Below, one piece after another: positions 1-20,357 of a stretch of DNA of 20,749 nt. Origin of the DNA: a virus; the IMG/VR virus record IMGVR_UViG_3300017951_000174, positions 1 to 20,749 of that record. One strand, written 5' to 3'. The notes under the pieces were generated by a model. It did not search any database. It saw nothing but the letters and a program-made list of their open reading frames with translations, and was not told the origin of the DNA. Position numbers and translations under genes: made by a program. Numbering within the stretch: position 1 is the stretch's first letter; the number at the start of each line of letters is the position of its first letter.

Positions 1-3000
1 TCCCGCTCGTCAGCCTCGGCCTTGGCAACGCATGCAGACGAAGTGCAGGCGGTGACAGATTCGAGACTGTATTCCGAGCTGTCGTATTTGTTCAGTGTAA
101 CAAGGAAGTCCTCATCAGAGCCTGAGATCTCCTGGATGGCTACGAGTTCTTCGTACTTCTCCTTGGAGATCGGCTCCATTGGCAGACGAGGATAGGTTCC
201 ACCATCAACGTCAAAACGAGCCAGCAGGGCGGCAGAGATGTAGCCACCGTCGTTCTGAATGGTGTCGTAGATCAGCTTGGCCAGTGTTGGCACTTCGTGC
301 TCACGCAGTTCAATGGTCGCAGACGTGTTGTGATCCGTAAAGTAGTTCTGCACCTGCATATAAAGACCATACTGGGCCTCGACGGGCAGATAGGCCAGGT
401 CGAACTGATCGCAGCCAGGCAGGTTGGCCCAGCTCACCTCTGTTGGGATTTCGACCAGAACTTCTTGAACTCGTGGGTCTGTAATGTCATCCAGAAGGTT
501 GCCCTTTTCGTCACGAGCGGACTGAGCGGGGATGACAGAATATCCTGTTTCCAGGAGAGCTGCGACCAGAGGATCATTGACTCCAAGGGTGATACGACGG
601 ATGAAGCGCTGAGCCTTAGGAGGATGCCAGCCAGAGGAGGCACCTGTCAGCAGGCTCTTAGTACCCGCAGGTTGCACGGTTGTGATGCGGTTTGGTGTGC
701 GAATGCCGTGGTTGCGGCAATAGTCGCGAACACCCTGGCGAGCGGCGATAGCGAAGCGCTCGAGGTACATGGCCTCGACCTCCTTGAAGTAGTCCGCACG
801 ACGACTACCTTCGGGGCGACCCTTCATCATCCAGCTCAACCACTCGGACCCGCAAGCGTGAACGAGAAAATCAAACAGACCAGTAAAGCTGACGCCAACA
901 ATAGGATCGATCTCACGAGAGTACTGGTACCGCTCATAAACGAACTCGTGTTGCAGAAGTGCAGCCACCTGTAGGCCAGCAGCGTAAAAAGCGTCGGCTT
1001 GTGCTTTTGCATCCTTCGGGTCCAGGGTATTCAGGTGGACTTCGCTGAGGTTGCAGTGGAAGTCACGGCCGACAATCTCACCGCAAGGGTTAAGTCCGTA
1101 CCGATCCATGCGATGTGAAAGCTCGCGCTCATCCAGTTCAGGGGCTAAGGTCTTCAGGAAGGACAACCCAGCCTCGCGACCGCCCTCGGTGTAGTCACGA
1201 ATGAAGGCGGACTTTAGGGCAGGAGTGTTCAACAGGTCAACATTGGCTCGAGCCACGGCTTCAGGTACGTACTGAATGGCTCCTTCGCCTGACTGGAATT
1301 GCAGACGCACAGCATCTTCGACTTCCTGGTAACTGGGCTTGCTGTGGTAGCAGCGGGTGTGATTGGCCATCCGCAGGGCTTCCTTCTTCGGGTCAACACG
1401 CCAGTTGCCCTCTTCATCCTGAGAGTACAGTCCGAGCTTGGCGGTAGCGGCTTCTGAGTCGTTTTGACTGAACTGCCTCATGCCCGCACTGTTGTGAGTC
1501 AGGTAGCCGTCAGCGTAGAAGCAATGAGCATCTTCGACTGTGATGTCATAGGTGGGAAGCACTTCACTTTCTCCAAAACCGAGAACGGTAACAGGAACGT
1601 GCTGGCACTCTCCTACACGCTCCTCCCATGACTCGAAGTTGAGATCGACGTCCTTTGCCCCGTTGAAACCAAACTCCCTGAGCTCCTTGTAGGAGAAAGC
1701 CTCCCTGGCAACCTTCCCTGGCACTGTAAACCCATTCATTTTTAGGGTATCGATAGGGATAAGACCTTTTACTGAGTAGCGGCAGACAAAAGTATTGAAG
1801 CGCTCTTTCAAGGCCACAATGTTGAGATGAAAACGATCGTTCCAATGCTTTTTCTCTGCCTTGTTGACTTTTCCTCGCACGACAATACCAAGACTTGAGG
1901 CAAGTCGAGCGACCTGTTCTGCAAAGACTGGATAGATGGTCGTGACAAGGTTGATCGGACGGGTCTTGATGGACCCATCGCTGTCGAAAAGGCCTGCTAA
2001 GTAAGCCCCTCGGACTTGAGCACTTCCTTCGATGATGTAATAAGGTACGGAAATTTCCTTATTGGGTTGTTTGACGTTTTCGAAGAAATACTCAGCAAGT
2101 CGAATAGAGGAGCAAGTGATCTTCAGAGTGTTTTCTCCCTTCACCCGCTTGACCGCAGCGTCAAGACCAAACTCGCTAAGAGCCAGGTTGATTTTGGCTG
2201 ACAGGTTTTGACTCAACTCCGTCTCGCGACTGTCGGTGCTCCAAGTAACCGCTCCGTAGGGTTTGCCGTGCTTATTGATCCCAAGAGAGACGTAGCCGTT
2301 GCCGTGGGTAAATCCAATAAGCCATGCGACAGCGGGACTAAGAGTGCTTGGAATGACGATGTTCTTAGCACGACTCATGGATGAGCGTCCACCAGTAGCG
2401 TCATCTGGCAACCGAGCCGTGTCGTCGGAACCTCGTGTAGCCTCGTTGATATGGAGCAACCGATCTCCAGGCATAAGATGTTCAACTGTTGTCCATTTTA
2501 TGTCATCTGGAGAAGTTCCCATAATAGCAACTTCATGGTTTGCTGTCGCAAGCATGTCAGGTCCGTTCGTGAGAACGCGCACGACAGGTTGACTGCCTTG
2601 AATAAACTTGTCAGTAACTTGCTTGACCCCGTAAGGAGTGTGGACTTCAGCTCCAACAGTGATCTCATCCATCCGCACGAGACCCTTGGTGGTGCTTACG
2701 AGGGAGTGTCCAGGTAAACAGCGACGGATGTTGCCAGCCACGATGCAAGCAGCAGCTTCATCGATCAGCAGGCAAGCCTCAACAGTGGTCAACTTACGGC
2801 CGACGGCACTGTTCAGCAGATCCACCACCTTGCGGAACATGGTTTCCAGCTTGATGGGATTAGAGGTGCCACCAAAACCCTTCAGACGCTCGCCAGCGGG
2901 GCGGACGTTGCCCAGATCCAGGTGGATGCGGATGTGCCCCTCGTGGTGCTCCAGGCCCTCGTGAGCCCAGTTGACGATGAGTTGGTAGGCGTCCTGCCAA

Positions 3001-3551
3001 CCCTTGCGGGAATCGCCCACGGAGAGGGTTACAGTGCCAGAAGGCAGAAGGGTGTCAAAGGTGGTCTCAGCGCGGCGGGCGGAGTTCGTGCCAATCTCGG
3101 TGGTCGAGACGATCTCCAGCTGGTGGCTAACGGCAGGTAGTGCATCGATCACATCCTGTTCAAGCACAGCGCCAGTGCCAGAGCCCTGCATGGCCAGGTC
3201 TACCAGCAGGCCGAAAGCTTCCAGGTCGGACATGTGAGTGTTGGTACAGTTGTACCAGCCGCTAAAGTTCTCGGGCTTCTTGCTCCACTCGGTGCCGGCT
3301 ACCCAGAAGGCGCGACCAGAGGGGAAGGCATGCTGAGCTAGGGCTTGCTCGGTAACTTGCGCGGCTTCTTGCTCGGTAAACTTGCCGATGCGGGCAATAT
3401 CCTCGACGGTACGGGTCATTGCTTCCTGGAAGTTCTCGCGGGTGCCGTCTGCTTTGCGGCGCGAGTACGTCCTGAAGTACACCACCTCAGCGCTTGGTGC
3501 CGAATCTCGAAACGGCTTGGACTTGCTAGGCTGGAACTCAAAATCTGACAT
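1..3551 (-). CDS. nrdJ: Class II (adenosylcobalamin-dependent) ribonucleotide reductase, intein-containing, C-terminus cut by window edge
   Basis: This gene encodes a monomeric B12-dependent ribonucleotide reductase that makes deoxyribonucleotides for phage replication. The frame is open from the ATG at 3549-3551 to the window edge, about 1183 codons including a 410-residue intein, leaving about 773 extein residues, a normal size for NrdJ. After in-silico splicing, Cys102 (in GWYNCTN), Cys413 (in NPCGEI) with Glu two residues on, and Cys423 (in FHCNLSEV) sit where the Lactobacillus enzyme has Cys119, Cys408, Glu410 and Cys419. The visible C-terminal end has a Cys-rich stretch (ACTSSACV) that may be the redox tail. 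No strong ribosome binding site is seen. A terminator and a TAGAAT -10 lie just upstream, so it probably starts its own transcript. A glutaredoxin encoded at 5363-5557 could be its reductant. The family call is firm; the true end lies outside the window. Confidence 0.93.
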   Translation of the reverse strand, partial: MSDFEFQPSKSKPFRDSAPSAEVVYFRTYSRRKADGTRENFQEAMTRTVEDIARIGKFTEQEAAQVTEQALAQHAFPSGRAFWVAGTEWSKKPENFSGWYNCTNTHMSDLEAFGLLVDLAMQGSGTGAVLEQDVIDALPAVSHQLEIVSTTEIGTNSARRAETTFDTLLPSGTVTLSVGDSRKGWQDAYQLIVNWAHEGLEHHEGHIRIHLDLGNVRPAGERLKGFGGTSNPIKLETMFRKVVDLLNSAVGRKLTTVEACLLIDEAAACIVAGNIRRCLPGHSLVSTTKGLVRMDEITVGAEVHTPYGVKQVTDKFIQGSQPVVRVLTNGPDMLATANHEVAIMGTSPDDIKWTTVEHLMPGDRLLHINEATRGSDDTARLPDDATGGRSSMSRAKNIVIPSTLSPAVAWLIGFTHGNGYVSLGINKHGKPYGAVTWSTDSRETELSQNLSAKINLALSEFGLDAAVKRVKGENTLKITCSSIRLAEYFFENVKQPNKEISVPYYIIEGSAQVRGAYLAGLFDSDGSIKTRPINLVTTIYPVFAEQVARLASSLGIVVRGKVNKAEKKHWNDRFHLNIVALKERFNTFVCRYSVKGLIPIDTLKMNGFTVPGKVAREAFSYKELREFGFNGAKDVDLNFESWEERVGECQHVPVTVLGFGESEVLPTYDITVEDAHCFYADGYLTHNSAGMRQFSQNDSEAATAKLGLYSQDEEGNWRVDPKKEALRMANHTRCYHSKPSYQEVEDAVRLQFQSGEGAIQYVPEAVARANVDLLNTPALKSAFIRDYTEGGREAGLSFLKTLAPELDERELSHRMDRYGLNPCGEIVGRDFHCNLSEVHLNTLDPKDAKAQADAFYAAGLQVAALLQHEFVYERYQYSREIDPIVGVSFTGLFDFLVHACGSEWLSWMMKGRPEGSRRADYFKEVEAMYLERFAIAARQGVRDYCRNHGIRTPNRITTVQPAGTKSLLTGASSGWHPPKAQRFIRRITLGVNDPLVAALLETGYSVIPAQSARDEKGNLLDDITDPRVQEVLVEIPTEVSWANLPGCDQFDLAYLPVEAQYGLYMQVQNYFTDHNTSATIELREHEVPTLAKLIYDTIQNDGGYISAALLARFDVDGGTYPRLPMEPISKEKYEELVAIQEISGSDEDFLVTLNKYDSSEYSLESVTACTSSACVAKAEADER
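1491..2720 (-). other. Intein in NrdJ with a two-motif LAGLIDADG homing endonuclease domain
   Basis: A 410-residue intein interrupts NrdJ after residue 277, between GNIRR and SAGMRQF, whose joining restores the conserved NrdJ segment. It begins with Cys (CLPGHSLV) and ends with HN, followed by Ser as the first C-extein residue. Block B (TANH, within MLATANHEVA) and block F/G (YDITVEDAHCFYADG then YLTHN) are all present, so splicing should work. A DOD endonuclease lies in the middle: motif one reads LIGFTHGNGYV (around residues 134-144) and motif two LAGLFDSDGSI (around 241-251). In motif one the position of the catalytic acid holds Asn141; motif two keeps Asp248. The endonuclease may therefore be a nickase or inactive. 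Confidence 0.9.
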
Positions 3552-3585
3552 AGGTGCGATGCGCGTGGAGAAAGGTTGCCGAATT

Positions 3586-3591
3586 ATTCTA
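3586..3591 (-). promoter_or_regulatory. -10 element TAGAAT upstream of nrdJ
   Basis: TAGAAT with CTG directly before it lies 34 bases upstream of the nrdJ start and 2 bases after the T-run of the preceding terminator. The -35 position would fall inside the terminator stem and shows no TTGACA-like match. It belongs to the recurring -10 family of this window. Confidence 0.5.
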
Positions 3592-3593
3592 CA

Positions 3594-3615
3594 GGAAAGG
3601 GCGGCTTGGCCGCCC
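3594..3615 (-). terminator. Hairpin terminator before nrdJ
   Basis: A perfect 7-bp GC stem, GGGCGGC with GCCGCCC around a CAA loop, is followed on the minus strand by TTTCC. The short T-run makes it moderate in strength. It would end the transcript of the small genes at 4685-3685. Confidence 0.5.
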
Positions 3616-3640
3616 CCTTGTGACACATTTGTAACTTTCA

Positions 3641-3677
3641 ATCGGGAATCCTGATAACATGCGTTTATCGGGAATCC
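3641..3677. repeat. Pair of 11-bp direct repeats between a small gene and nrdJ
   Basis: ATCGGGAATCC occurs at 3641-3651 and 3667-3677, 26 bp start to start, in the short gap before nrdJ. The spacing of about two and a half helical turns could suit a protein binding site, but nothing else supports an operator. Confidence 0.4.
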
Positions 3678-4123: not shown

Positions 4124-4258
4124 TCATCGCTTGCCCTGGCCAAGGTATTTCTTCTGACCCTTTTTCTTGAAGGATCCGCGCTTGCGAAGGCCGTCGCCTT
4201 GGCTGGTCCGCTTCTTGGGACCACTTTGGAACAGTTCGCCAGATTTGTACATTGCCAT
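4124..4258 (-). CDS. Very basic 44-residue protein
   Basis: This tiny protein (MAMYKSGELFQSG, then a run rich in Lys, Arg and Gly ending YLGQGKR) has about a dozen Lys and Arg in its last 30 residues. Such composition suggests nucleic-acid binding or a minor capsid-packaged peptide, but that is inference. It has its own promoter candidate (TTGACC, 17 bp, TAGAAT) 28 bases upstream, which is the main reason to believe it is expressed. Its TGA overlaps an ATG of the next gene as ATGA. A second ATG two codons in is equally possible as start. Confidence 0.6.
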   Translation of the reverse strand: MAMYKSGELFQSGPKKRTSQGDGLRKRGSFKKKGQKKYLGQGKR

Positions 4259-6252: not shown

Positions 6253-7523
6253 CAAATTACCACCTGAATAATCGTTTGAGGCTCTCGAAGTGCTTCATGA
6301 GCCTTGTCAGCCGACCTTGCGTTGTACTGCTCGAGTTCAGAAATAATCTCATAGCCTTCGACTCCATCCACATTTTGAAGGTCAGCCTTAAACCCATCCA
6401 GTCCCTGAGGCGTGACAATGTGGATGTTCTGCGCTGCTTTCGACACGAAGCCCAGTGCCTCCTCAGAATAGGCGTTAGAGCCCACGAGAGAGGCGTTGCG
6501 AGAAACGTAGTCAGAGACGACTGTCGCATGGATGTGACCGCAGAGGATGTGAGTGATGTTGATACCTCTGGCGGCGAACTTGCCGATAATAGCCTGGACC
6601 TTCTTTTGGTCGGTGGCCGAGATCTGATGGCCATGCACGCCCAAGAAGGTCTCGTTGTGGACCTGGAAGATGACCTCGTTGGCATTGAAGTAATGGAAGC
6701 GCATGCCCTTGTCGTCCGTTGCATCAAAGACGGCCTGAAGCATTGCGTAGATGGTGTAGTCGTAGCTATCGGTGGCCACGACGTCCACCCAGCCCAGGTT
6801 TTCCTTGGCGCGGGACTCGTTGCCGGCAACGCCGAATACGTCCACGAAGAAGTCTGCCCGCAGATCCATCAGGAACTGCTTGTACAAATGAGTTGCAAGG
6901 ATGGTGGCCCGAGCACGGTTGGTGCTCATCGCCAGCAGCTCATCCAAACGGCGGTCAGAGTTCATGAGATCGCCTCCGAAAAAGACAACCACACGCTCAA
7001 CGCCGTAAGCCTTGCCAAGGAGTTTAGCCTTCTGAGCCAATAACTGAAGGCGCTTGGCTCCTACTTCAAAGTCGAAGCGGTTGGTCGGCAGGTTGACGAG
7101 TTCGTTCCAGTGATTGTCGGACAAGTGGACAACCAAAACAGCTGCAGAGGGATCCAGAGGGCCACTGCGACGGGGACAATCAGCAAGAGAGGCGCCGTGC
7201 TGCTCCAGCTCCGCAAGAATGGCCTCGTTGTAAGCCGTGACAGCGTTTTCAATGCGAGCATGTTCCCTAAAAGCCTTGTTAGCGATGCGGTTGCGATCGA
7301 GGAGCCCTTGATTTGCCTTAGCCAGCTTGACATTAGCCTCGATGGTTTCGTAGTCGACGGTCGGGCCTGCCAGCTCGGTCTTAATGTAGCTGCGCAGGTG
7401 GTTGGGCTTAGCGAGGTGCGGGTACCGCTTATGAAGAGCGTTCGCTACACCCAGGTAGCTGCCGATCTCTTCGTAGAGTTCGGCGACCTCGTCATGCAAA
7501 TGACTGATGGGTGTCAGGCTCAT
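6252..7523 (-). CDS. Calcineurin-like metallophosphoesterase
   Basis: A 423-residue two-metal phosphoesterase. The metal-binding signature is complete: LSDNHW (134-139), GGDLMNSDR (183-191), GNESR (234-238), GVHGHQ (295-300) and CGHIHA (328-333). The GNESR motif has Ser-Arg where GNHD/E enzymes have His-Asp/Glu, so the catalytic His is altered. About 100 N-terminal residues are helical and begin with a segment like a helix-turn-helix (VAELYEEIGSYLGVANALHK). The start at 7523 is preferred to 7541 because the TATACT -10 at 7550-7555 lies 26 bases before it but only 8 before the other. It could be a nuclease (SbcD/MRE11-like) or a phosphatase; the substrate is unknown. It follows primase, suggesting a role in DNA metabolism. 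Confidence 0.82.
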   Translation of the reverse strand: MSLTPISHLHDEVAELYEEIGSYLGVANALHKRYPHLAKPNHLRSYIKTELAGPTVDYETIEANVKLAKANQGLLDRNRIANKAFREHARIENAVTAYNEAILAELEQHGASLADCPRRSGPLDPSAAVLVVHLSDNHWNELVNLPTNRFDFEVGAKRLQLLAQKAKLLGKAYGVERVVVFFGGDLMNSDRRLDELLAMSTNRARATILATHLYKQFLMDLRADFFVDVFGVAGNESRAKENLGWVDVVATDSYDYTIYAMLQAVFDATDDKGMRFHYFNANEVIFQVHNETFLGVHGHQISATDQKKVQAIIGKFAARGINITHILCGHIHATVVSDYVSRNASLVGSNAYSEEALGFVSKAAQNIHIVTPQGLDGFKADLQNVDGVEGYEIISELEQYNARSADKAHEALREPQTIIQVVI

Positions 7524-9129: not shown

Positions 9130-9858
9130 TCAAAAGAGCGAGCCTTGCAACCGTCCGTCGCTAATCTCTTCCCAGCCATCGATCAAATCGATTTCTTCTT
9201 CCGACCAGTCAGTGGCATTGCAGCCAGCAGCGAGCAGAAAATCGTTGACCTCTTCCCTAGGGATCACGCTGCCATTGCCGCTCAGGTACACGTCCAACGC
9301 TGCGATAGCGCTCTCCCCGCCGATGCGTTTAATGGCATCCTCAGCCAGGCCTAGGTACATGGCGCCGAAGTCAATCTCATCGGGCTCCAGTGGGTCTGTC
9401 GGCTTGGCCTGTTCCTTCAGCTCCAGTGGTGGACCAGAGCACACTTTGCGCACTTCCAGCCATTCCTCCTTGGTAATACCGAGCTCAGCAGCGACCTCGT
9501 GGTCGGTAGAACCTCGGTACAACAGCTTGCGTCCTTTCACCCAGCGCTCACGCATCTTGTGACTAAGCCTTACTGCGTAGGTCTTGTCCCGAACCCAGTG
9601 CAGCAGCTCTCCTCGGATCGTCGGCACTGCCAGGGAGCTGAATTTCATACTCTTCCCTGTGACAGGATGCGGTCGATCGGGGTTGTAGCGATGGGCAGCC
9701 TTGCACAAGCCCTCGAAGGCGACAGACTCCAGGGTGTGGTAATCGATACCAGTGGTGCGCTGTATGCGCCATGCCTCACGACGGGCGAGGTTAAGATTGT
9801 CTGTAGCGAGCTTCTGCTGCTCCTGGCTCATTTGAAACTTTGCAGGCTTCCGAGCCAT
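9130..9858 (-). CDS. Divergent sigma-70-family factor (regions 2 and 3, no visible region 4)
   Basis: A 242-residue sigma factor that would redirect RNA polymerase to phage promoters. Region 2 spans about residues 19-92 (LARREAWRIQ, then LESVAFEGLCKAAHRYNP and FSSLAVPTIRGELLHWVRD), closest in style to SigF/SigB-like factors with the (F/Y)-A-x-P-T-I-R-G-E helix that reads the -10. Region 3 follows at about 97-140 (VRLSHKMRERW, DHEVAAELGITKEEWLEV). The last 100 residues are acidic and show no recognisable region 4 helix-turn-helix for the -35. The start at 9858 has ACAGGTC upstream and its own -10. It lies between terminase and primase. Confidence 0.85.
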   Translation of the reverse strand: MARKPAKFQMSQEQQKLATDNLNLARREAWRIQRTTGIDYHTLESVAFEGLCKAAHRYNPDRPHPVTGKSMKFSSLAVPTIRGELLHWVRDKTYAVRLSHKMRERWVKGRKLLYRGSTDHEVAAELGITKEEWLEVRKVCSGPPLELKEQAKPTDPLEPDEIDFGAMYLGLAEDAIKRIGGESAIAALDVYLSGNGSVIPREEVNDFLLAAGCNATDWSEEEIDLIDGWEEISDGRLQGSLF

Positions 9859-12105: not shown

Positions 12106-12111
12106 AGTATG
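12106..12111 (-). promoter_or_regulatory. -10 element CATACT before terS
   Basis: GGCATACT lies 26 bases before the terS GTG and 10 bases after the T-run of the terminator at 12122-12141. The same GGCATACT follows the terminator before the sigma gene at 18501. Confidence 0.45.
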
Positions 12112-12121
12112 CCGAGACATC

Positions 12122-12141
12122 AAAAAAGGGCCCGAAAGCCC
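12122..12141 (-). terminator. Intrinsic terminator between the thyX and terS transcripts
   Basis: On the minus strand GGGCTTTCGGGCCC folds into a GC stem with a UUCG-type loop and is followed by six Ts. It starts five bases after the stop of the frameshifted small gene, closing the thyX operon. Confidence 0.8.
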
Positions 12142-12146
12142 AGTGG

Positions 12147-12417
12147 TCAAGCTTGCCATGTATCTGGTCGAACAAAGTCGGCTCCTACATGGTCATAGTT
12201 GTCGGGGTCAGCCGTTTTCTCGAGCTGAGCAAGAATCAAGGCCTGATGGAGTCTTTGAGCATTTTCCGGCGTGAGCGATGTACACGTTTTCGTGATCAAT
12301 CTCGACGCGGGCCCCGGTAGGCGTGTGCTGATCAGGGCCTTCTCCAGAGGAGATCCAGAAGCTTAGCGAGTCGAGATCAATGGTCGGCTCGCCGTAGTCG
12401 TTGAAGTTGATGATCAT
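12147..12417 (-). pseudogene. Small gene with an apparent +1 frameshift
   Basis: The ATG at 12417 overlaps the thyX stop (ATGA) and encodes MIINFNDYGEPTIDLDSLSF onward. In that frame the protein ends at 12208 with an unconvincing tail (HAGKCSKTPSGLDSCS). Moving forward one base after the codons for ENVYI (about 12275-12282) gives LTPENAQRLHQALILAQLEK, then a sensible acidic end, stopping at 12147 just before the terminator. The joined product would be about 89 residues. It could be a base insertion, a sequencing or assembly error, or a programmed +1 shift. The joined protein family is not recognised. Confidence 0.65.
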
Positions 12418-13637
12418 GTGAATGCTGCCTCGTAGATGGTCGGAAACTCCTGCTCGAAGATGTCCATGATCGCGTGGGCTACCAGGCGGTGCTCAAACTG
12501 AGTCTCGATCCCACTGCGAATCTGCAGAAAATGCACCCAGGACCTTAGAGTGCCATTCATGTAGAGCCTTGTTGGCGTACCCAGGGGCAGGATGCTGCGA
12601 GCGCATTCCTTGGCGACGCCTTCGCTGAGCAGATACTCGTAGTAGTCGAAGATGCTGTGGTAGAGCTGCTGGATCTGTTTGTTCATCAGATCGACCTTCT
12701 TGGGGTCCAAGTCGTCGTGCGATGCCTGCTTGTTCTTCGGGTCCTGGCTGCGGAGGTGGGGTAGGCCGATAGTGCCGAGCTGATCGACAGAGCTGTAGCG
12801 CTGCGAGTTGTGGACGACAATGCCATCGGCTACGAAGTTGTGGGTCGGATGGTTCATCTCGATGTCGTAGGTCATCTGAACCCCTAGATAGGACTGAGAG
12901 TCGATCTTGCTCCACTTGGCAGTCATCCCAAGTGTCCATCCATGTAGGACCTTTGGGTCTTGGTATGGGAGCGGCTCTGCTGTTGTTCCGTTGAGAGCTA
13001 CCGTCAGGTTATTGTCGTAGGCCTCTCCAAACTCAACAAAGCCGCGCTCTTGAGTCAGGACACGGTGCTCGCGAGTGCAGTCAATGCTTCGCTTGCCGAC
13101 CTGAAAGCGATAGACAGGTTTTTTACCAGACTCGTATACGGACAGGATGGGAGCCTCGATAAAGCGGCCAACAGACTCGTCGTAGGAGCGGGCGTAGCGG
13201 GCCTTGAAAGAGGGGTTATTCCACTTCCTATAGAGGTCCTCGATCGGCAGCCGCTGGACGCCCCCTGAGCCGTTGGAGACCGTGATACTGGTATTTCCAG
13301 CCAGGCAGAACTCCTGAAAACTGAAGCTTTTATGACGCAGAATCTGAGCAGCGATAGCACGAGTTGTTTCAATCTCGACCACCATGTTGGACATTTCCAG
13401 CGGACTCCAATGCTTGTGCTTCATAAGGTAGCGAAGCAGACGAGGAGCGGTCTTGACGTTCTCTTGGTTGTTCGGATTCGAGACGCGAGCGCAGTAGGTC
13501 ACGATGAACTCGGACTCTGCTAGCTCGGTTGGATCGGAAAGATTATGCCCACGCTCCTTTTCGAAGAGCCGAATAAGCTCTTCGTCTGCCAGCTTGGAAG
13601 TGCTGATGAGACGGGCAGTGTGAACTTCGCGTTGCAT
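12414..13637 (-). CDS. thyX: FAD-dependent thymidylate synthase, intein-containing
   Basis: ThyX methylates dUMP to dTMP using FAD, NADPH and methylene-tetrahydrofolate. The extein is 240 residues, the usual size. After splicing the signature reads RHKSFSFQEFSQR, which fits RHRxxS-x4-SxR except for Lys in place of the second Arg. The C-terminal part has the ARSILPLGTPTRLYMNGTLR and EIETQF-like substrate segments (here RSGIETQFEHR). The intein splits the signature between EF and SQRYS. No good ribosome binding site is seen before the ATG at 13637. It teams with nrdJ for dTTP supply. Confidence 0.94.
   Translation of the reverse strand: MQREVHTARLISTSKLADEELIRLFEKERGHNLSDPTELAESEFIVTYCARVSNPNNQENVKTAPRLLRYLMKHKHWSPLEMSNMVVEIETTRAIAAQILRHKSFSFQEFCLAGNTSITVSNGSGGVQRLPIEDLYRKWNNPSFKARYARSYDESVGRFIEAPILSVYESGKKPVYRFQVGKRSIDCTREHRVLTQERGFVEFGEAYDNNLTVALNGTTAEPLPYQDPKVLHGWTLGMTAKWSKIDSQSYLGVQMTYDIEMNHPTHNFVADGIVVHNSQRYSSVDQLGTIGLPHLRSQDPKNKQASHDDLDPKKVDLMNKQIQQLYHSIFDYYEYLLSEGVAKECARSILPLGTPTRLYMNGTLRSWVHFLQIRSGIETQFEHRLVAHAIMDIFEQEFPTIYEAAFT
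12807..13307 (-). other. Mini-intein in ThyX, no endonuclease
   Basis: A 167-residue intein with only splicing blocks. It starts with Cys (CLAGNTSITV), has block B TREH (in DCTREHRVLT), block F (TYDIEMNHPTHNFVADG) and ends VVHN before Ser of SQRYS. No LAGLIDADG or HNH domain fits in the short linker around residues 95-135, so it is not mobile by itself. Its insertion site is inside the flavin/dUMP signature loop, so unspliced ThyX must be inactive. Confidence 0.92.
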
Positions 13638-16548: not shown

Positions 16549-16977
16549 TCAAACTCCCTCCCTTTCTGCAATATACGACTGCGGAAGGCTACCATTCGTG
16601 CCCGACACAGCGTTGATCACCTGAGGCAGGTGCTTGTTAGAGCTGTTCAGAATCCAGAGATCCGCCTTGGTGCTGTAACGCAGCAGCCCAGAGGCAACCA
16701 TGTCACCCAGAACCTCCTCCACAAGCCACTCCAGGCGGGTTCTGTCGTCCTCGTCGTCCAAGTACTCCGACCAGCCACTATAAAGCTCTCCATGAGCGCA
16801 CATCGGGGTAATGGCTCCAACCACTTCACTCTTCCTGACTGCTCCACGGAACAGCAGGATTGACCAGACAAATGGCCGTACGTCAGCTGTTGTCAGCTCT
16901 GGGGTTGAGTCATACAGCAGGCCAAGAGTGCCTGGAGCGACCTCTGCTTCTTCGATGCGAAGGCCAAACTGGTTCAT
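16549..16977 (-). CDS. Hypothetical 142-residue protein
   Basis: The first half (EEAEVAPGTLGLLYDSTPEL, FVWSILLFRGAVRKSEVVGA) and second half (TRLEWLVEEVLGDMVASGLL followed by LWILNSS) read as helical, the latter resembling a winged-helix wing and recognition helix. No conserved catalytic residues are apparent. GAGGTG precedes the ATG, which overlaps the upstream stop as ATGA. Confidence 0.68.
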   Translation of the reverse strand: MNQFGLRIEEAEVAPGTLGLLYDSTPELTTADVRPFVWSILLFRGAVRKSEVVGAITPMCAHGELYSGWSEYLDDEDDRTRLEWLVEEVLGDMVASGLLRYSTKADLWILNSSNKHLPQVINAVSGTNGSLPQSYIAEREGV

Positions 16978-17192
16978 GAGTTCACCTCGTCAGTAGAAAA
17001 ATAGACAGAGCAGTTGGTGGCACTTATTTCTCGGTAAGGCAGCGCTTCACCCTCGGCCAGATTGTAATGCGGGTTGGAAGATAGCTCATCCACGTTCTGC
17101 CAGTAACCAAGAGCTATGGCCGCATCCTCGATCCCATCATTCCAGACTAGGACCTTTTGCGGTGTCTCGAAGTGAAAATACTGAAGTGACAT
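16974..17192 (-). CDS. Hypothetical 72-residue protein, first gene after a terminator-promoter
   Basis: MSLQYFHFETPQKVLVWNDG begins a small alpha/beta protein ending CSVYFSTDEVNS. The ATG at 17192 has an AAGGAGG ribosome binding site and follows the promoter by 25 bases. A longer frame from 17267 would run through the terminator hairpin and is rejected. Family not recognised. Confidence 0.72.
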   Translation of the reverse strand: MSLQYFHFETPQKVLVWNDGIEDAAIALGYWQNVDELSSNPHYNLAEGEALPYREISATNCSVYFSTDEVNS

Positions 17193-17217: not shown

Positions 17218-17223
17218 AGCCTA
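17218..17223 (-). promoter_or_regulatory. Extended -10 TGTTAGGCT with -35 in the terminator loop
   Basis: TGTTAGGCTG lies 25 bases before the ATG at 17192. Exactly 17 bp upstream is TTGCGC, which sits in the loop of the terminator at 17229-17256. The first gene of a small-gene operon follows. Confidence 0.6.
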
Positions 17224-17228
17224 ACACC

Positions 17229-17256
17229 AAAAAAGCCCAGGCGCAAGGCCCAGGCT
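17229..17256 (-). terminator. Intrinsic terminator after ssb
   Basis: Minus-strand AGCCTGGGC and GCCTGGGCT pair as nine bp including two G-T wobbles around CTTGC, followed by six Ts. It lies 37 bases after the ssb stop. The loop carries part of the -35-like TTGCGC of the next promoter. Confidence 0.82.
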
Positions 17257-17292
17257 CTTAAGGTCATTCGGAGAAGGGGTTAGCCCATCCTA

Positions 17293-17646
17293 TCAGAAGG
17301 GATCAGCGCCACCTGATGCAGGAGCATCCTTGCGACCTTCTAAAAACGTAACTCGACTGTTCTTTACGTCCAAATAGATCTTGTCCTGATACTTGCGCTG
17401 AACGAGCTGTCCGTGCACAGCAACGCGGTCGCCGCGCTCCAGACGGTCAGCCACGATTTCTGCGCCCCTGCCTGTGACTTCTACACTGTAGAACTGGCCG
17501 AGCTTGTCGTCGTCTTTTGAGTAGAAGTACTCAGTGTCGACCATGCTGAATTTGGCGATCTTGCCGCCATTGCCGAATTCGTGAACCGTGACAGCAGGTT
17601 CACCCTGTTTGCCAGTCACTTTTCCGCCGAGAGAGATTGAAGCCAT
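17293..17646 (-). CDS. ssb: Single-stranded DNA-binding protein
   Basis: A 117-residue OB-fold SSB. The family pattern is visible: SISLGGKVTGKQGEPAVTVH as the first strands, KIAKFSMVDTEYFY, FYSVEVTGRGAEIVADRLER and GDRVAVHGQLVQRKYQDKIY. The C-terminus ends GGADPF, close to the DIPF partner-binding tip. GAGGAC precedes the ATG. It protects single-stranded DNA during replication and would work with the primase and annealing protein. Lies after the sigma gene and ends before a terminator. Confidence 0.93.
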   Translation of the reverse strand: MASISLGGKVTGKQGEPAVTVHEFGNGGKIAKFSMVDTEYFYSKDDDKLGQFYSVEVTGRGAEIVADRLERGDRVAVHGQLVQRKYQDKIYLDVKNSRVTFLEGRKDAPASGGADPF

Positions 17647-17697
17647 TTTCGTGTCCTCGTTGAGGGTTTACAGTTTTGCGTGGTCCGACCACACTTC

Positions 17698-17703
17698 AGC
17701 CTA
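17698..17703 (-). promoter_or_regulatory. Extended -10 TGATAGGCT before ssb
   Basis: TGATAGGCTG lies just after the stop of the sigma gene, 51 bases before ssb. A 5-bp hairpin (GTGGT with ACCAC) follows in the leader. Confidence 0.4.
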
Positions 17704-17709
17704 TCAGCC

Positions 17710-18501
17710 TTAAGCTACTTTGTACCGCATGGTGCGAACAGCTTCCTGGTAAAGGTTCTGGCAGTGCTTAGGACTAAGGGACAACTTGCTGGCGACAACA
17801 GACATGCGGCCACGCTTGGTGTAGTTGCGCACGATCTCTTGGGTGCGGGGTTTAATGCCGCACTCATCCATGAGCTGATCCAGTTCAGCGGATGCCCTGA
17901 GGCTTTCGCCCTGCTTGCTGTGGTACAGACTGTTGTCGTTGCCCATCAGGTCGGCCAAGGTGCTACCCTCCTCGTCGTCCAGGCGGATGTCGAGAGAGCT
18001 GATGGAGTTGCAGCGATTGGCAGCACTGATACATTCCTCGCTGACAATGCGGCCCCTGGACTTGCTGGGCTTACCATGGCGCTTACGGTACAACACCTCG
18101 GTCATCGTACCCTCGGGAACGTAGATAGTACGGTCATGGCTGTTGTGCCAGCGGGTAGACGCCTGGTAGATCCAGGGGTGGGCGTAGGTAGAGAAGGTAA
18201 AGCCACGAGCACCGTCGTATTTCTCAGCGGCACGACGCAGGCCGATATAGCCCTGCTGGAGCAGGTCGGAGATGACCTCGCTGCTCATCGTGAAGCCCAT
18301 GCGCTTGTTGATGTACTTGCGCACCACGTTGGGTACAAGGCGCAGGTTGTGCTCACAGATCTTGTTGATCACCTTGATGTAGGCGCGGGAGCCAGGCTCC
18401 AGAGTGTCGCGCTTCTTGGCGAGTCGGATCATTTCGGACTTAGGCAGGAGAGGGAAACGTCCTGCTGCGTTGAGCCATGCCTGGATTGGGTCGTTAGTCA
18501 T
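17710..18501 (-). CDS. RNA polymerase sigma-70 family factor (group-2-like)
   Basis: A 263-residue factor. Region 1.2 (DPIQAWLNAAGRFPLLPKSE, 4-23), region 2 (EHNLRLVPNVVRKY, 50-63; VISDLLQQGYIGLRRAAEKY, 76-95; FTFSTYAHPWIYQASTRW, 101-118) and a region 4 helix-turn-helix (about 218-258) are visible. In the -10-reading helix the usual TWW is HPW, so the first Trp of the pair that stacks on the melted base is lost, while Gln and Thr that read -12 are kept. Region 3 is weakly conserved. The start at 18501 has GAGGG upstream and follows the terminator-promoter; a start at 18540 sits against the T-run and is unlikely. It is downstream of the annealing protein and upstream of ssb. Confidence 0.88.
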   Translation of the reverse strand: MTNDPIQAWLNAAGRFPLLPKSEMIRLAKKRDTLEPGSRAYIKVINKICEHNLRLVPNVVRKYINKRMGFTMSSEVISDLLQQGYIGLRRAAEKYDGARGFTFSTYAHPWIYQASTRWHNSHDRTIYVPEGTMTEVLYRKRHGKPSKSRGRIVSEECISAANRCNSISSLDIRLDDEEGSTLADLMGNDNSLYHSKQGESLRASAELDQLMDECGIKPRTQEIVRNYTKRGRMSVVASKLSLSPKHCQNLYQEAVRTMRYKVA

Positions 18502-18530
18502 TTCGGGCCCTCGGGGAGGTGGATGAATCA

Positions 18531-18536
18531 AGTATG
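18531..18536 (-). promoter_or_regulatory. -10 CATACT with -35 in the terminator loop
   Basis: TGGCATACT lies 29 bases before the sigma ATG. TTGCGT is exactly 17 bp upstream, inside the loop of the terminator at 18541-18569. Confidence 0.6.
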
Positions 18537-18540
18537 CCAT

Positions 18541-18569
18541 AAAAAGGGACCCTACGCAATGAGGGTCCC
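18541..18569 (-). terminator. Intrinsic terminator after the annealing protein gene
   Basis: GGGACCC and GGGTCCC form a perfect 7-bp stem, extendable by a T-A pair, followed by five Ts on the minus strand. It lies 28 bases after the stop at 18598. The loop carries TTGCGT. Confidence 0.85.
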
Positions 18570-18597
18570 CTTAAAGAAATCTATAAATCCGCTGAGA

Positions 18598-19314
18598 TCA
18601 CCACTGCTCTGAACTGGCTTCTTCCTCTTTGGGGCCGTACTTGGAGTTGAGTTCTTCTGCTGACTTGCTTCCCAGAACCTCGAGTCCTTTCCCGAAGTCA
18701 CCGCCGAGTTTTTCGCCTTTGACGATTGCAACGAGGGCGTCGATGGCAACGGTATGGACGCCTTTCTCGAGGGCGGCTTCGCGAAACGTGGTCTCAGACA
18801 CCTCAGAAGTGCCACCAGTAGCCGCTGCAGGGGCCGCCTTGGGAGCAGCCTGGGCAATTGGAGCCTTTGGGGCAGAGTCAGGGGCAGAATCAGGGGCAGG
18901 ACGGCGGTATGAGTCCTCCATCGGATCATTAGCCCACAGCTCGTAGCCCAGCCCGAAAACCATGGCTGCTGCCATGCACGTTCCGCGACGCTGCGTGTCT
19001 GTAACGTCACGGGCTCCAATCTTTTCGTATGCGATTGGATTATGCTTGTGGTCCTTGATTGCCTGGGGCAGTGCTGGTGTCACGGTGCCGTCAACATGAC
19101 GGAAGCGGATCATCAGGTAGCCGCCGACAGGGGCGCGGTGGATCATGCCTCCATCAGGAGCAGCCTCATAGTCAACCATCCAGCCAGGTGCGTGCTGGTG
19201 GAGCAGGTTGATTGTGCGACTCCATGAAATATAGCTCGCAGAATACCTGCCAGTGCCGATCTTGTCGACCAGGTCCTTGGTTGCCACACCTGCGAGATTT
19301 GGAAGTTCAGCCAT
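18598..19314 (-). CDS. Single-strand annealing protein of the Rad52/ERF superfamily (DUF1071/Sak3-like)
   Basis: A 238-residue recombinase that would pair single strands exposed by the RecE-like nuclease. The core, about residues 10-145, follows the family layout: YISWSRTINLLHQHAPGWMV, GGYLMIRFRHVDGTVTPAL, then TDTQRRGTCMAAAMVFGLGY and ELWANDP. The C-terminal 95 residues start with a low-complexity Ala/Pro linker with a PDSA repeat and continue as a small helical domain, ending acidic (EEEASSEQW), likely an SSB-like or partner contact. The ATG at 19314 has GAGGAACC. The family is by pattern. Confidence 0.8.
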   Translation of the reverse strand: MAELPNLAGVATKDLVDKIGTGRYSASYISWSRTINLLHQHAPGWMVDYEAAPDGGMIHRAPVGGYLMIRFRHVDGTVTPALPQAIKDHKHNPIAYEKIGARDVTDTQRRGTCMAAAMVFGLGYELWANDPMEDSYRRPAPDSAPDSAPKAPIAQAAPKAAPAAATGGTSEVSETTFREAALEKGVHTVAIDALVAIVKGEKLGGDFGKGLEVLGSKSAEELNSKYGPKEEEASSEQW

Positions 19315-19345
19315 GTCGGTTCCTCGGGGATAAGATTGCTTGGTC

Positions 19346-19351
19346 ATTCTA
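19346..19351 (-). promoter_or_regulatory. Extended -10 TGTTAGAAT before the annealing protein gene
   Basis: TGTTAGAATG is 31 bases before the ATG at 19314, at the low-coordinate end of the hairpin-rich gap. No -35 match. Confidence 0.5.
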
Positions 19352-19859
19352 ACAGCACGAAATCCCTATCGGGTGCAGCCGACAGGGTTCGTAGGTGATG
19401 TAGGTCCAGGACAGCCCGTGCAGAGACTGCTGGCGGCTCAGTAGGTGTTCGATTGATCGTCGCGGTGGAGGATTTTTCACCTCTGGTCGAATGACCGTCA
19501 ACTCCGCTTGCCGCCGGATTCCTCGTCTCCTGCCACCGCTTACTACCCCGTAGAGGTTCGCCGGATTCTGCAGAAGGGTCGTACGGGCAATGACTCCCGT
19601 CTACCGTCGCTGACTTTGATCGAATAGGGGTTACTCCCCGCCAAGATCTTTCTTGGTGCCATCCCTCCAATGAGGCGAGGCTCTTTGCGGACTTCTTTAC
19701 CCGCTCGCTACCTGTCAATTCAGGTTTTAAGTTTTGGATGCTTCAGACACCCTTGCGACCTGTGAATTCAGGCTTTTAGGTTTTGTTTCTCGCCTGACGC
19801 TGCACCGTCTTCGAGGATTGAGCTAATTGCCTCGGCCGCTTATGTGCCTTGGTGATTCC
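19352..19859 (-). ncRNA. Hairpin-rich gap of about 500 bases, possible structured RNA
   Basis: No convincing gene is present: the one long minus frame (19344-19718) starts at TTG and has an implausible product. The stretch instead holds ten compact hairpins, for example at 19759-19772, 19711-19724, 19664-19675, 19641-19656, 19627-19639, 19583-19600, 19543-19553, 19485-19496, 19468-19483 and 19364-19373, each with a 3-5 bp perfect stem. A TAGGAT -10 (19860-19865) lies just upstream on the minus strand and the annealing gene promoter closes it. A decamer GAATCCGGCG occurs twice. I could not match it to tmRNA, RNase P RNA or group I introns. It may be a large phage RNA of an unrecognised class, or degraded sequence; the strand is assumed from the neighbours. 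Confidence 0.4.
19710..19785. repeat. Two diverged direct repeats of about 28 bp
   Basis: Units at 19710-19736 and 19758-19785 share ACCTGTnAATTCAGG followed by TTTTAAG or TTTTAGG and TTTTG, with one inserted base. Each contains a CCTG...CAGG hairpin. They lie in the hairpin-rich gap. Confidence 0.7.
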
Positions 19860-20318: not shown

Positions 20319-20324
20319 AGTCTA
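20319..20324 (-). promoter_or_regulatory. -10 TAGACT before the 20289 membrane protein
   Basis: GGTGTAGACTGGG lies 29 bases before the ATG. TGGCGC, one base different from the TTGCGC seen at 17241-17246, is 17 bp upstream in the weak terminator hairpin. Confidence 0.45.
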
Positions 20325-20335
20325 CACCTTGAATG

Positions 20336-20357
20336 AAAAACGCGCCACAGTTCGCAC
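20336..20357 (-). terminator. Weak hairpin with T-run
   Basis: GTGCG and CGCG can pair with wobbles, followed by five Ts on the minus strand, 10 bases after the stop of the gene at 20368. The stem is poor, so this is tentative, but its place between a stop and a -10 fits the pattern at 17229 and 18541. Confidence 0.3.

Follow-up and report, generated by a model that had tools for sequence, protein, structure and literature searches.

At operon borders of the virus fragment analysed here, the intrinsic terminator closing one unit and the sigma-70-type promoter opening the next are probably fused, with the -35 hexamer in the loop of the terminator hairpin; such fused elements are given a probability of about 0.85. 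The design is real, selected and wider than first claimed, and it is not wholly new in kind. The window, i.e., the whole stretch of 20,749 nucleotides, is a 20.7-kb fragment of an S-CRES3/S-CBS2-like cyanosiphovirus. The genes follow the order Rad52/Sak-like, sigma, ssb, RusA-like, ThyX, terminase, second sigma, primase, phosphatase, and ribonucleotide reductase, as they do in three Synechococcus cyanosiphoviruses, S-CRES3, S-CRES1, and S-CBS2. The genes around both sites considered below are carried by the minus strand. Upstream of site 2 lies the gene of a Sak/Rad52-like single-strand annealing protein (18598..19347; weak matches to PHROG 8492 and PF06378), S-CRES3 having a Rad52 recombinase. 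Site 2 would start a sigma-70-family factor gene (17710..18501; PF04542, E=4e-11; PHROG 351), and the unit that lies between sites 2 and 1 ends with ssb (17293..17646; PF00436, E=4e-10). The first ORF after site 1 (16974..17192) encodes 72 aa without family match and is preceded by an AAGGAGG ribosome-binding site.

Site 2 stands at the recombinase/sigma border, where the 3' border of the Rad52/Sak-like gene is a terminator hairpin, AAGGGGACCCT-CATTGCGT-AGGGTCCCTTT, with 11 bp and a loop of 8 (18543..18572, minus strand; MFE about -18 kcal/mol). Along the minus strand, the hairpin is followed by the T-run, TATGG, and CATACT. The loop CATTGCGT (18561-18554) holds the entire -35 hexamer TTGCGT (18554..18559), for which relatives display TTGACA, TTGACT, or TTGACG. 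The T-run TTTTT (18541..18545) continues the 3' arm and falls within the 17-bp promoter spacer, which leads to the -10 hexamer CATACT (18531..18536), kept in relatives and immediately preceded by TGG. The earlier note had placed at 18541-18569 a terminator with TTGCGY in its loop, 17 bp before a -10, a description that proved exact, the hexamer lying wholly in the loop.

The same arrangement had been claimed for site 1, at 17229-17256 on the ssb border; there, the terminator, the 17-bp distance, and the -10 are confirmed, but only four bases of the hexamer are in the loop. The hairpin, AAGAGCCTGGGC-CTTGC-GCCTGGGCTTTT, follows ssb and comprises 12 pairs with a loop of 5 (17231..17259, minus strand; MFE about -18.6). 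The -35-like TTGCGC (17241..17246) has its first four bases in this loop and its last two in the 3' arm, and the T-run TTTTTT (17229..17234) is again within the spacer. On the minus strand, the order is hairpin, TTGGTGT, and TAGGCT, with a spacer of 17 bp; this -10 (17218..17223), with TGT just before it, is TATGCT in L001 and TAGGAT in L010. At both sites, a TG one base ahead of the -10 makes it an extended -10. Both also display a GC-rich RNA hairpin with a U-run directly after it, as in intrinsic terminators, together with hexamers 16-18 bp apart, as in sigma-70-type promoters, the family form being TTGACA-17-CATACT and the window's hexamers being weak.

A relaxed form of the pattern matches twice in the window, versus a mean of 0.005 over 200 dinucleotide shuffles, none of which gave two matches; the exact, overly strict form found no match in the window's own record. 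Judged by hexamer match alone, the window promoters would be weak, TTGCGY agreeing with the consensus at 3/6 positions and the -10s at 3/6 and 4/6. The weight given to these predicted promoters comes from the conservation of the signals in relatives, not from hexamer match. That both sites are terminators only, matching a promoter by chance, agrees with the weakness of the hexamers taken alone (3/6 and 3-4/6). It is nevertheless very unlikely because TTGACA and CATACT are kept across relatives with unrelated stems and because a sharp 17-bp peak is found in unrelated phages, among the matches listed.

Comparison at site 2 covered loci encoding the sigma factor or the Rad52-like protein, plus S-CRES1, S-CRES3, and S-CBS2, which amount to 16 distinct versions of the border. 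All 16 carry TTGNNN inside a hairpin (TTGACA in 11), the -35 extending partly into one arm in some relatives, and in all 16, CATACT or a similar hexamer stands 16-18 bp further on, with spacers of 17, 18, and 16 bp in 12, 3, and 1 versions, respectively. Mean pairwise identity is 0.88 for the -35 and 0.88 for the -10, whereas the two stem arms (inner seven bases) reach 0.34 and 0.33, about the level of unrelated sequence. Arms of the same border pair at 99% of positions versus 44% when arms are swapped. As the stems are unalike while their pairing, the hexamers, and the spacing are kept, the stem has been replaced many times under pairing pressure, and the comparison shows selection on both stem pairing and promoter signals at once. 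It also speaks against the hairpin being no terminator but an operator in the DNA, a dyad with the -35 at its centre to which a repressor or activator would bind. Operators often are dyads over -35 elements, which speaks for such a dyad, but the arms share no sequence among relatives or between sites (identity 0.34) and the GC-rich stems run into T-runs as in intrinsic terminators, so that the operator reading is very unlikely. Against the fused terminator-promoter reading, a remote clade (L067, L068, and L070) has no element before its sigma gene.

At the ssb border, relatives are less uniform than at the recombinase/sigma border. One stem with TTGCGC is common to the window, L001, L003, and L010. 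In relatives with other stems, the loop contains TTGACG, TTTACG, or TTGACA, 16-18 bp before TAGAAT, TATAAT, or TATAGT; L004, with TTGACA, displays the same design. Other relatives count against the fused reading. L064 has the same stem and -10 as the window but CCCGCG in the loop, and S-CRES1, S-CRES3, L062, and L065 combine a terminator with an extended -10 and no loop -35. In L055 and S-CBS2, only a terminator is found. From L064 and the relatives without a loop -35, it follows that at this border the -35 would be dispensable or the promoter different; the loop -35 is, on this comparison, not strictly required. Thus, the expectation that stems vary with compensatory changes while loop word and spacing are kept is borne out at the recombinase/sigma border and fails as a universal rule at the ssb border. 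The loop word itself had been given as TTGCG and has to be replaced by TTGAC[AGT], the family form; relatives indicate that TTGCGY is no special hexamer but a lineage-specific form of TTGACA.

Elsewhere in the window, a third site proposed at 20319-20357 with TGGCGC is rejected as a fused element, having neither terminator nor conservation. No GC-rich terminator hairpin is found there, the fold being weak (-10.6 over 61 nt), and in the closest relative this stretch has neither hairpin nor T-run, just TAGACT being kept. The stretches 3586-3615 and 12106-12141 are, as had been described, GC-rich hairpins with T-runs (GGGGGCGGCCAAGCCGCCCTTT and GGGCTTTCGGGCCCTTTTTT, respectively) devoid of a loop -35. 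That one part would both end an operon and begin the next is consistent with geometry, conservation, and recurrence, but not with the inclusion of the third site nor with universality at the ssb border.

The design recurs in other phages. In about 311 kb of this group, made up of the window, five contigs related to it, and portions of two cultured phages (eight sequences in all), the strict pattern yielded 15 elements, some of them orthologous, versus about 0.1 expected from dinucleotide shuffles and 1 in reversed sequences. Among reference phages, the scan found four elements in P-SSM2, three or four in T1, and nine in KVP40. T4 and RB49 gave one weak match each, shuffles giving at most one, and no element was found in lambda, T7, T5, Syn9, HTVC008M, HTVC010P, and S-CBS1. 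Two T1 elements (TTGCGC, 17 bp, and TAGAAT or TATAAT) coincide with the depositor-annotated terminators 22793-22816 and 24972-24994, at which the T1 record annotates no promoter. Promoters have apparently been missed in T1, a classic phage. More generally, annotation may miss promoters hidden in terminators, the T1 record listing two such stretches as terminators only. In L530, these T1 elements are 4194-4217 and 6373-6395, with TTGCGC in the loop or overlapping it.

In a broader collection, the scan of viral contigs asked for a terminator whose loop contains TTGAC, no -10 condition being imposed. The figures are samples in database order among the matches listed rather than counts, redundancy being removed solely per 30-bp element. 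A -10-like hexamer stands 16-18 bp further on in 97 of the 116 non-redundant viral terminators (84%) and at exactly 17 bp in 77/116, among the matches listed. The control loop GTCAA gave a -10 in 11/86 (13%; Fisher p=4e-25 versus TTGAC, among the matches listed), and with reversed stem polarity, the values are 46/87 versus 8/77 for the control loop CAGTT (p=6e-9, again among the matches listed). The same TTGAC-loop pattern in genomes of bacterial and archaeal species gave 29/117 (25%), a small excess among the matches listed. Since the proportion is 84% in viral contigs versus 25% in these genomes, the design is mainly a phage trait, and the predicted fusion is widespread in phages. L098, one of the contigs, has a gene for a single-strand binding protein of the cyanomyovirus type.

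In the proposed mechanism, RNA polymerase coming from the upstream operon would make the hairpin RNA and halt at the U-run. The same DNA bases would act as the sigma-70-type promoter of the next operon, with its -35 in the loop and often an extended -10 just after. The 17-bp spacer would consist of the 3' arm of about 7-11 bases, the T-run, and TGN. The shared bases could serve both functions because the demands differ: arms that pair plus a U-run for the terminator, two hexamers at a given distance for the promoter. The stem alone would be free to vary, and it does so with pairing maintained. Site 2 would form the divide between the recombinase gene and the sigma-ssb unit; site 1, whose -35 is weaker, would likewise set apart the genes that follow ssb. 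Presumably, both activities work in vivo, the promoters being read by a sigma factor of the host (or phage).

Within this fused reading, the sharing of bases may reflect economy only, the short intergenic space packing two signals that act independently. This is somewhat probable, the genomes being dense and all observations compatible with economy alone. Moreover, at the ssb border of some relatives, an extended -10 comes after the terminator and does not overlap it, and RB49 puts its -35 after the T-run. Using the loop so precisely to hold the -35 exceeds mere adjacency, yet it is also the shortest arrangement. The element might otherwise be a coupled device, in which a polymerase ending at the T-run would already be in place on the next promoter and start again there. 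After intrinsic termination, bacterial RNA polymerase commonly stays on DNA, diffuses, and reinitiates nearby, more so with added sigma (PMC6978380, PMC6978322), a behaviour that favours such recycling. The release point also falls within the promoter, and the promoter of site 2 would drive a sigma gene. The coupling is nonetheless purely inferential, and a polymerase still in elongation might block the promoter instead; recycling is an unlikely candidate. Still a little more doubtful is its extension to a widespread and repeatedly evolved border device in which polymerase would be released onto the next promoter, operons would be chained by hand-over, and the sigma gene would be self-supplied. 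Space economy accounts for the anatomy equally well as recycling.

Among known systems, the closest counterparts of the fused elements are the PeSL motifs of T4-like phages, reportedly treated by Arbiol 2010 (10.1093/gbe/evq006) and Comeau 2014 (10.1093/gbe/evu129). PeSL stands for promoter early stem-loop, and the titles cited in PMC4503421 present these as composite promoter-terminator motifs. Like the window elements, they combine a terminator stem-loop with a sigma-70-like promoter within a single short intergenic stretch. The -35 of the window group sits in the loop, unlike in the PeSL sequences of KVP40, near-identical copies with the -35 inside the paired stem, 17-18 bp before the -10, and unlike in that of RB49, in which TTGACA comes after the T-run. 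The nine similar hairpins at KVP40 loci L334-L339, e.g., AAAGGGTTGAC...GTCAACCCTTT followed by TATTAT at 17-18 bp, are the stem-type counterpart of the loop-type element. PeSLs have repeat homology, with copies able to recombine and shuffle genes, whereas here the copies of one genome have unrelated stems (G001, G005, and G007). PeSLs also occupy the hyperplastic regions of T4-like myoviruses, whereas the present elements keep fixed positions in cyanosiphoviruses, at the rad52/sigma border and the ssb border. As these two features differ, the elements are not filed as PeSLs; in their predicted action, each is like a PeSL with its -35 shifted to the loop.

A tandem of terminator then promoter likewise ends one unit and starts the next but shares no bases, whereas in window-type elements the -35 and the spacer belong to the terminator itself. 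In the promoters of the phage N4 virion RNA polymerase, a hairpin also coincides with the promoter. Those hairpins are DNA structures near -11 for a phage single-subunit RNA polymerase, whereas those of the window group are centred on the -35, run into T-runs, and are followed by a standard -10; a promoter of the N4 type is ruled out on this anatomy. No description of a -35 within a terminator loop was found in the literature searched, and the passages covered on LUZ100 show none of the design. The fused element may offer a compact natural stop-and-start part with separable functions, the loop for initiation and the stem for termination. Its wide occurrence in phages would carry the PeSL idea past T4-like phages and supply natural templates for asking whether RNA polymerase, having just terminated, immediately starts transcribing the next operon.

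Other features of the window were recorded. The phage has two different sigma-70-family genes on the minus strand (9130-9858 and 17710-18501; PHROG 36098 and 351, respectively), both also carried by S-CRES3 and S-CBS2. Putative inteins are present in the ribonucleotide reductase (3-3641) and ThyX (12414-13637) frames of the minus strand, called by eye from translations that start with CLPGHS... and CLAGNT... and end with ...HN. Upstream of the Rad52-like gene, 19360-19760 on the minus strand comprises about 400 nt without a shared reading frame. It is missing in L001 and gives no match in Rfam; L055 is the sole other viral contig found to have it (71% over 379 nt), conserved blocks being split by indels of 49, 30, and 19 nt. 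This stretch is a candidate for a structured RNA of a new type.
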